NCBI GenBank assembly: GCA_023251875.1
Contig: JAHEXY010000003.1
Location: 124,001 to 188,000, forward strand
Direction of reading: 5' to 3'
Length of the DNA: 64,000 nucleotides
Source: Bacteroidota bacterium
GTDB lineage: Bacteria > Bacteroidota > Bacteroidia > JAHEXY01
Numbering within the stretch: the stretch's first letter is position 1; each line of letters opens with the position of its first letter. The translations under genes were made by a program, and so were the position numbers. The notes under the pieces are model-generated. The model was not told the DNA's origin. It made no database searches and saw nothing but the letters and a program-made list of their open reading frames with translations. Of this stretch, positions 52,821-53,822 are shown piece after piece.

Positions 52821-53377
52821 ATTAAAAATGCTATTGGGTTATTACACAATATAATAATATCCTTAACATTTTTTCTAAATGTAATTGAAGTAGTTATTCG
52901 GTGCAGTCAAATATTTATTCGAATCTTAAACTTAAAACAATCTTTTTTTTGCATTAAAAAATTATAAATTGTTGGATATGTATATATTAAACTGTAATTA
53001 AAATTGATTGATATAAAATTAAAAAGGCTTATCCTGTTTTTCAATATACCAAATGCTTTAGCTCTGAATAATTAAATAGAACTCCAGACTTAAGTCTGGA
53101 GTTAAAAATCAATCAAAAGTATGGGCTTCAGCCCTGAAAAAATGGTATAATCATTTTTGCGAATGAAATTTAAACAAACATACATGATATAAAATGAATA
53201 CAGGGTGTGCAGGCATTAATGTAATCTTGGCTAATCCTGCATGTGTGTAAGCAAATACCAGGAAGAAAAACCGACATGAACGATGCTCATTTGCTATGTA
53301 AACTATTGGTAAACGGTATTGTTGCTTGGCAACAAAGATGAGTTTTATTTTTTTGATTATTCTTTAACCGTAACTTA
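52821..53377. other. Gene-free stretch with palindromes
   Basis: No credible gene on either strand. It holds a perfect 24-base palindrome at 53080-53103, a GGGCTTCAGCCC hairpin at 53123-53134, inverted repeats GCAGG/CCTGC and AGCAAAT/ATTTGCT around 53210-53300, and a TTGTTGC-TTG-GCAACAA hairpin at 53319-53335. The first 200 bases are plain AT-rich DNA upstream of the minus-strand 520-residue protein. Confidence 0.5.
53080..53134. repeat. REP-like pair of palindromes
   Basis: AACTCCAGAC-TTAA-GTCTGGAGTT (perfect) followed 20 bases later by GGGCT-TC-AGCCC. The pairing of a short GC-rich palindrome with a GGGCTTCAGCCC unit resembles repeats mobilised by REP-associated tyrosine transposases. No such transposase is encoded in the window. 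Confidence 0.5.
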
Positions 53378-53478
53378 ATTTTCAGAGAAAACTCTTGTAT
53401 CTCGCCAAAAGGCGAGATTAGTTCGACTAGCAATTTTTGTAGCGCTTGCAGATACAAAAATTGAGTTTTACTGAAAAT
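53378..53478. ncRNA. Highly structured locus, candidate non-coding RNA
   Basis: Outer stem ATTTTCAG / CTGAAAAT (53378-53385 with 53471-53478) continues, after a small internal loop, into AAAACTC / GAGTTTT. Inside are three hairpins: ATCTCGCC-AAAA-GGCGAGAT (53399-53418), TAGT-TCG-ACTA (53419-53429) and an 11-base stem CAATTTTTGTA / TACAAAAATTG (53431-53463). An alternative pairing TTGTATCT (53395-53402) with AGATACAA (53450-53457) would extend the outer stem and break two of these. It matches no RNA family I can name; strand and transcription are unknown. Confidence 0.35.
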
Positions 53479-53484
53479 GCAAAA

Positions 53485-53513
53485 GGGTAATGATAGATGA
53501 ACCACCATTACCC
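53485..53513 (-). terminator. Probable rpmE terminator
   Basis: GGGTAATG / CATTACCC stem with a 13-base loop. On the minus strand, after the rpmE stop, it is followed by TTTTGCATTTT. Confidence 0.6.
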
Positions 53514-53546
53514 CTTAGGTATTTACAAACAAAGACAACAAAAATT

Positions 53547-53822
53547 TTACGATGCCTTCTCTTCTTTTTTCTCCTGATGTTTTTTGTAACGATTTTTGAA
53601 TTTGTCGATACGACCTGCTGTATCAACCAATTTCATTTTACCAGTATAAAAGGGGTGAGACATATTAGAAACCTCAAGTTTAATAACAGGGTATTCTTTA
53701 CCGTCTGTCCATACCATAGTTTCTTTACTTGGCGCAGCAGATCTAGTTAAAAATGCCTGCTCACATGACATATCTTTAAAAATAACCATTCTATAATTCT
53801 TTGGGTGAATATCCGCTTTCAT
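53547..53822 (-). CDS. rpmE2: 50S ribosomal protein L31, type B
   Basis: 91 residues. [20 protein letters not shown] and [20 protein letters not shown] are the L31 signatures. The zinc-binding CxxC of type A is absent, and the central loop is the longer type B form. A complete promoter lies upstream and a terminator downstream, so it is a single-gene unit. Confidence 0.96.

Follow-up and report, generated by a model that had tools for sequence, protein, structure and literature searches.

A worn copy of a dispersed, REP-like hairpin element downstream of rpmE2 in a Bacteroidota genome and the proposed mobility of its family as single-stranded DNA

The window, a stretch of 64,000 nucleotides from a Bacteroidota contig (JAHEXY010000003.1), contains a gene-free gap of 726 bases (52821-53546), as stated in an earlier note made from the sequence alone. 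The gene preceding this gap is rpmE2 (53547-53822, minus strand), an ORF encoding the type B 50S ribosomal protein L31 (NCBIfam NF002462, 125.3 bits), a neighbour that lies outside the element described here. Its terminator-like hairpin (53485-53513, minus strand), recognised from the fold and the sequence and followed by TTTT, lies 11 nt upstream of the element. The segment 53378-53513, pointed out in the note as a structured locus, folds far beyond chance on both strands. The RNA fold reaches -51.9 kcal/mol on the minus strand (z -8.5) and -43.0 kcal/mol on the plus strand (z -6.8), with 0 of 200 shuffles as good in either case, and the DNA fold of the minus strand of 53378-53475 has a z of -6.4. 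The computed fold reproduces the proposed outer stem with three inner hairpins (8-bp, 4-bp and 10-12-bp stems), to which the rpmE2 terminator hairpin is added.

The relevant strand is the minus strand, and the conserved unit comprises 53419-53473 plus the hairpin at 53399-53418. The former, hairpin A, is a worn copy identified by a covariance model of the family, R1 (53417-53475, minus strand, 33.7 bits, E 2e-5 in 211 kb), and by an exact 3' foot, AGTCGAACTAAT, which has a single exact match within the window. On the minus strand it consists of a 5' foot (53464-53473), which reads CAGTAAAACT here and TAGTGAGACT in the consensus, a stem (53455-53463 with 53431-53439) and a 3' foot (53419-53428, AGTCGAACTA). 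Hairpin B (53399-53418, minus strand; ATCTCGCCTTTTGGCGAGAT) is a second module, assigned from its sequence and from family statistics on the second hairpin. The 3' arm of the outer closing stem (53378-53398, minus strand) is seen in the fold and is absent from the family structure in alignments of 52 and 150 copies. The window copy alone has this stem, a consequence of the change of its 5' foot from TAGTGAGACT to CAGTAAAACT; the stem is built from the altered foot and from sequence beyond hairpin B. A flanking 54-nt repeat (53343-53396, minus strand) shares 94% identity with G000:C22:98612-98665. In the family, the 5' foot pairs with AGTCGAACTA, whereas in the window AGTCGAACTA (53419-53428) forms a mini-hairpin of its own. 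The folds are, therefore, truly competing, as the note had proposed, although its particular 8-base alternative pairing was not reproduced. Six standard pairs of the family-type foot pairing remain in the window copy (counted by eye), and its 33.7 bits compare with 43.7-63.6 for the 12 other own-genome copies listed with R1. The copy after rpmE2 is probably decayed and inert, with its left foot lost.

The same gap holds two further palindromes, a perfect 24-base one, AACTCCAGACTTAAGTCTGGAGTT (53080-53103), and GGGCTTCAGCCC (53123-53134). Another possible REP-like structure lies around GGCTAATCCTGCATGTGTGTAAGC (53200-53260). It recalls the hairpins beside a RAYT-like gene (L149; 184 aa, with NHLH and YIHNNP), as well as GATTAGC..ACAC repeats found by a pattern search at four own-genome places.

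A DNA search of the own genome with the segment retrieved short matches elsewhere, two of which had the block AAAATTG..AGTCGAACTAATCCCGC in common. Side-by-side comparison of the own copies gave the form TTAGTGAGACT, stem-loop, AGTCGAACTAA, hairpin. In the orientation of the minus strand of the window, hairpin A of the element consists of TAGTGAGACT, a variable stem-loop and AGTCGAACTA, and a second hairpin usually comes after it. The core pattern, with up to 3 mismatches, occurs at 14 places in the own genome and at none for the reversed control, and R1 yields 15 matches at E<=1e-3, so the further genome copies that the note had suggested looking for do exist. The two-foot pattern (TAGTGAGACT N20-50 AGTCGAACTA) is present at seven exact places.

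The family structure was tested as a hand-written model on a structural alignment of 52 of the 68 listed copies of 53-54 nt. The model runs from TAGT, GA/GA and GACT through a variable stem of 10 bp and a mini-hairpin of 2 bp to a 3'-side bulge of 2 nt and the complementary feet. It paired 93.4% of 1037 cells, compared with only 26-36% in slid versions. Changes on both sides of a pair affected 203 cells versus 57 in shuffles, and the covariation score was 0.484 versus 0.143. The feet are invariant in this alignment because the search pattern fixed them. In 150 copies found with R1, an alignment fitted to the model, double-sided changes number 708 versus 199, and the feet both vary and covary, the third foot pair being G-C in 119 and A-U in 27. 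In 73 of 110 copies, a hairpin B stem of at least 5 bp starts no more than 4 nt past the 3' foot; such stems occur at 9.7% of random positions and in 8% of shuffles. The apical mini-hairpin carries a GNA or ANA loop in 44 of the 69 CTAT-type copies and in 4 of the 43 CTAA-type ones. The aligned copies have tandem G.A pairs in a Py-GA-Pu setting, and the GA/GA mismatch is asymmetric and constant throughout. Since Py-GA-Pu tandem G.A pairs and GNA triloops are favoured in single-stranded DNA hairpins, the G.A pairs and the apical mini-hairpin suit single-stranded DNA. Copy totals in this work (96, 105, 107, 110, 112 or 116) differ by the flank length needed, the dropping of arrays and whether own-genome loci are in or out. 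A stemless motif match judged to be due to chance (L035) was excluded from the stop-share test and from the GC-skew, base -1 and tip counts, and included in the upstream-terminator, stop-distance and second-hairpin counts.

The two-foot pattern was found in at least 108 stretches of GTDB contigs and in one of IMG/VR. Most of the 80 GTDB titles listed belong to Bacteroidota, Syntrophaceae/Smithella or unclassified Deltaproteobacteria. Patescibacteria and Chlorobiota are represented by one record each, and the single Oceanobacillus match has no stem and is probably due to chance. The dispersal set comprised 99 of 109 loci from two motif scans, with L035 and L134-L142 left out. In 23 other genomes, chosen for having the motif, R1 gave between 1 and 153 matches at E<=1e-3, with 109-153 in six Syntrophaceae-type genomes, in which 150 candidates were scored per genome. 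Across an even draw of same-class genomes (18 candidates scored each), only 2 of 295 had an R1 match at 1e-5, the own genome among them. Given this contrast with the dense Syntrophaceae-type genomes, the element is frequent in a few lineages and missing from most, and the family is patchy across phyla.

The copies adjoin unrelated genes. A recurrent neighbour gene family was sought among 813 ORFs, and the clusters looked, by eye, like ordinary gene families. Rfam gave no match in the whole window at the gathering score, and on seven own loci, with E allowed up to 5, it gave only six matches, with E values of 0.32-4.5, all far under the gathering score. The position of the element, 11 nt beyond the terminator hairpin, would fit a local regulatory RNA or an extended terminator of rpmE2, and the earlier note had offered a regulatory RNA as one reading. 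A segment query matched 7 of 60 relatives, but the hairpin itself was covered in the own genome only; the six other matching relatives aligned over the rpmE2 coding end or flank. The conservation beside rpmE for which the note had proposed a check is thus not seen in these relatives. With more copies beside other genes, no Rfam match and a window copy that is worn relative to the other own-genome copies, a function tied to rpmE2 finds no support and is extremely improbable.

Sites with and without the element were compared in a host repeat starting ATCTATCAATATTTCAAAGAAC, of which the own genome contains three filled copies (contig C7) and seven sequences without the element. This host repeat is itself a second dispersed repeat, on C5, C6, C7, C14 and C20 (L234-L242 and L150:9988), and is often followed by another palindrome. 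In the best pair, L236 versus the empty L150:9988, the sequences match on both sides of an insert of ~94 nt (lengths by eye). The two hairpins, A and B, plus roughly 10 nt make up the insert, and the empty copy has 5 nt instead. Neither a target duplication nor an excision product was seen. The three filled repeats all lie within about 22 kb and may represent one event followed by duplication. No TAR was found at the junction of the empty own-genome host repeats; therefore, the TAG there came at least partly with the element. In four intergenic regions compared between related Syntrophaceae, entire units are present or missing, and the arrays contain unlike copies.

Two own copies sit within an open reading frame, on its opposite strand. 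In duplicated Rhs-like ORFs on contig C7 (L150:4894-4944 and L150:8074-8124), the element lies antisense and in frame and is read as a protein segment of the ISSTNNSAEKAELSLTKI type. An empty-site comparison in this Rhs-like gene was not clean, as the third copy lacks about 500 bp.

Extra copies, patchy presence and filled versus empty sites fit the other reading in the note, a DNA hairpin site used by a mobile element. The insertion evidence, together with the features favoured in DNA hairpins, is the reason for reading the element as DNA. One class of mobile DNA to consider is a MITE (miniature inverted-repeat element) of a DDE transposase, and the ends of the element are indeed imperfect inverted repeats (GTGAGACT / GTTCGACT). 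However, the asymmetric GA/GA mismatch is constant, target duplications were not seen, and the stems vary with compensation, unlike fixed terminal repeats, which makes a MITE quite improbable. We consider it likely that a non-autonomous, REP-like hairpin element of ~60-95 nt, mobilised in trans as single-stranded DNA, gave rise to the window segment, which is a decayed copy of it.

The element is frequently placed on stop codons. Its first TAG is the in-frame stop of an ORF of at least 100 codons in 22 of the 112 copies with enough upstream sequence, and three further copies start 1-10 nt past such a stop. On the opposite side, 0 of 100 coincide, and the other two frames stay open through the element start in six copies and one copy. 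A stricter gene call placed 14 copies at stops, 78 in intergenic regions and 13 in genes. The resulting share at stops is 14 of 92, whereas intergenic TAGs and TAG stops taken together in the same loci would give 4.3% (p 3.9e-5). The 22 stop-codon copies represent 18 gene families, judged from C-termini, and are not 22 independent events because relatives are included (three ACT, two groEL and two of one other gene). The proteins ending at the element look complete: the CysJ sulfite reductase profile is reached to its last position (606 of 606 aa; 597/597), and profile coverage is 136/136 for bacilliredoxin, 414/415 for Rho and 541/543 for GroEL. A terminator-like hairpin ends just upstream of 11 of 96 non-array copies, versus 71 of 3840 random positions in a control that includes coding DNA. 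Intrinsic terminators as the target would explain only this minority of copies (11/96). GC skew places 74 of 110 copies on the G-rich strand (p 4e-4), a preference confounded by gene orientation.

The ACT-domain protein of L066 was sought in 17 element genomes, giving 15 orthologues with a readable 3' end (L269 and L270 were unusable). A full element detected by R1 lies exactly at the stop in eight of them. Two have only the left foot at the stop (L257, with a full element 16 nt further, and L272), and five have no element (L258, TAG; L262 and L266, TAA; L267 and L268, TGA). In the eight filled orthologues, all six TAG stops are matched by the foot CTA and both TAA stops by TTA. The proteins of L255 and L256 are 97% identical, yet their elements have unlike stems and different stops. 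From these sequences, unlike elements at the same stop suggest repeated insertion or replacement at one ACT stop codon. Alternatively, there may have been a single old insertion with later conversion.

These positions also bear on a different explanation, in which the element is a cis-acting RNA starting at the stop codon and selected at 3' ends for protection, termination or a translation-end signal, its dispersal being secondary. Such an RNA would account for the exact position on the stop codon with complete proteins, for a good RNA fold and for the retention in 8 of 15 orthologues of one gene while the stem changes with compensation. Its presence in only 2 of 295 same-class genomes, the arrays of unlike copies, the unrelated neighbours, the copies within an own-genome ORF and the empty sites argue against it, and we regard it as unlikely as the primary nature of the element. 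A secondary RNA role at 3' ends may nevertheless exist alongside a mobile DNA element.

An enzyme for the element was not found, and across the seven own loci, 30 other loci and then 40 more stretches, Y1 transposase genes are not consistently near its copies. The own-genome candidates are the 184-aa protein of L149 and six IS200-type proteins. The seven own-genome Y1_Tnp loci contain no element (0/7), and the Y1 stretches of Bacteroidota element genomes contain no copy. In other element genomes, 2 of the 30 Y1 loci first examined have the element within about 1.5 kb, and 45 Y1 stretches searched afterwards, several of them around the same genes, yielded five with the element, all in element-dense Syntrophaceae-type genomes. 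The tightest pairing among the Y1 loci examined is at L210:1853-1910, where about 50 nt separate the end of a full element from the gene of a 233-aa Y1 transposase that follows. A search for PF01797 in the element genomes G076 and G078 gave no match.

Integrons were considered as another source, with the copies as attC-like recombination sites in a cassette array with variable stems. The feet are conserved and the stems variable, several own copies are co-oriented near toxin-antitoxin-like genes, and an integron integrase exceeds the cut-off in 6 of 24 element genomes, all of the Syntrophaceae type (G060, G061, G064, G066, G081 and G082). However, no integrase exceeds it in the own genome and 17 other element genomes, including the element-rich G062 and G065, and only one of the eight integrase loci examined (L244) has the element. 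The R boxes of attC sites are RYYYAAC and GTTRRRY, which the feet GTGAGAC / GTCGAAC do not match, and an attC origin is very unlikely.

The mobile hairpin reading brings the element close to REPs. According to PMC2817692 and PMC6006769, GTAG REPs with RAYT/TnpA-REP are short dispersed palindromes of high copy number, clustered, extragenic and often at 3' ends, as is the element, which is itself a dispersed, multi-copy, extragenic palindrome. PMC2817692 also prints a AAGCGNAGCGCA tip for REPs of Enterobacteriaceae; the element shares this apical AAGCGNAGCGCA and the compensatory changes. Compared with GTAG REPs as described there, it has a longer basal stem with tandem GA/GA, a 2-nt bulge, a usual second hairpin and an exact stop-codon placement, and it lacks a consistent flanked RAYT gene. 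An unpaired 5' GTAG/GTGG foot tag is not a fixed feature of the copies; the base at -1 before TAG is G in 32 of 116 and in 0 of 43 CTAA-type copies, and TAG itself is paired. A RAYT/TnpA-REP gene flanked by the same repeats was seen at none of the seven own Y1 loci and only in scattered Syntrophaceae cases. Two further groups are described in PMC6006769. TnpA-REP subclass 2.6 has 'atypical' Bacteroidetes hairpins that lack GTAG, and subclass 2.4 has 'double foot' REPs, whose two ends bear complementary feet. As described there, these hairpins flank their transposase genes, whereas the element is absent from Bacteroidota Y1 stretches. It is these descriptions, rather than sequences, that set the element apart, and it may be identical to one of these groups. 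CGTC REPs, as described in PMC3733652, have an 8-9 bp stem, a 4-5 nt loop, a CGTC tag and a CCA tail; they resemble the element in their occurrence in Bacteroidetes and in having no dedicated transposase found. Measured against that description, the CGTC/TGTC tag, the 8-9 bp stem and the 4-5 nt loop are absent from the 52-copy alignment, and the element does not share the CCA tail either. At L103:5620-5660, an element copy is immediately preceded by a palindrome, TGTCATTGCGAG...GCAATC, that resembles REPs of the CGTC/TGTC type. With no match in Rfam and no description met in searches of the REP/RAYT and dispersed-palindrome literature, the element is apparently undescribed.

The foot sequences recall a further system. 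In single-strand transposition of the IS200/IS605 type, the target is read by guide pairing and no target duplication arises. The element resembles this in a putative foot/target complementarity (TAR/YTA) and in that no target duplication was seen; unlike IS200/IS605, it has no linked transposase, and its guide would be the 3' foot rather than the 5' foot. We propose that an enzyme supplied in trans would move the element in the form of folded single-stranded DNA; the most plausible candidate is a Y1/HUH nuclease of IS200/IS605- or RAYT-like type. This choice of enzyme reflects resemblance alone, namely the REP-like apical AAGCGNAGCGCA and a foot/stop pairing like the IS200/IS605 guide. The candidate enzyme would read a TAR trinucleotide by letting the 3' foot of the element pair with it. 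Stop codons might then be favoured because TAR is present there, insertion would be harmless and a tandem stop (TAG TGA or TAA TGA) would be restored.

A more specific and more tentative idea is a cross-phylum family of single-stranded DNA hairpins with stop codons as targets. The CTA or TTA of the 3' foot would pair with TAG or TAA, and insertion, neutral for the protein, would supply a tandem stop. The TAG-CTA and TAA-TTA combinations do covary, and the empty own sites have no TAR; these outer pairs could covary merely as part of the stem. We hold such targeting to be possible but doubtful. If true, this mobile DNA would carry its own safe-harbour rule, read through base pairing, and provide a natural case of protein-preserving insertion at gene ends. 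The element itself offers a defined substrate for an enzyme search, and its covariance model would allow hundreds of so far unexplained intergenic repeats to be annotated in genomes of Syntrophaceae and Bacteroidota.
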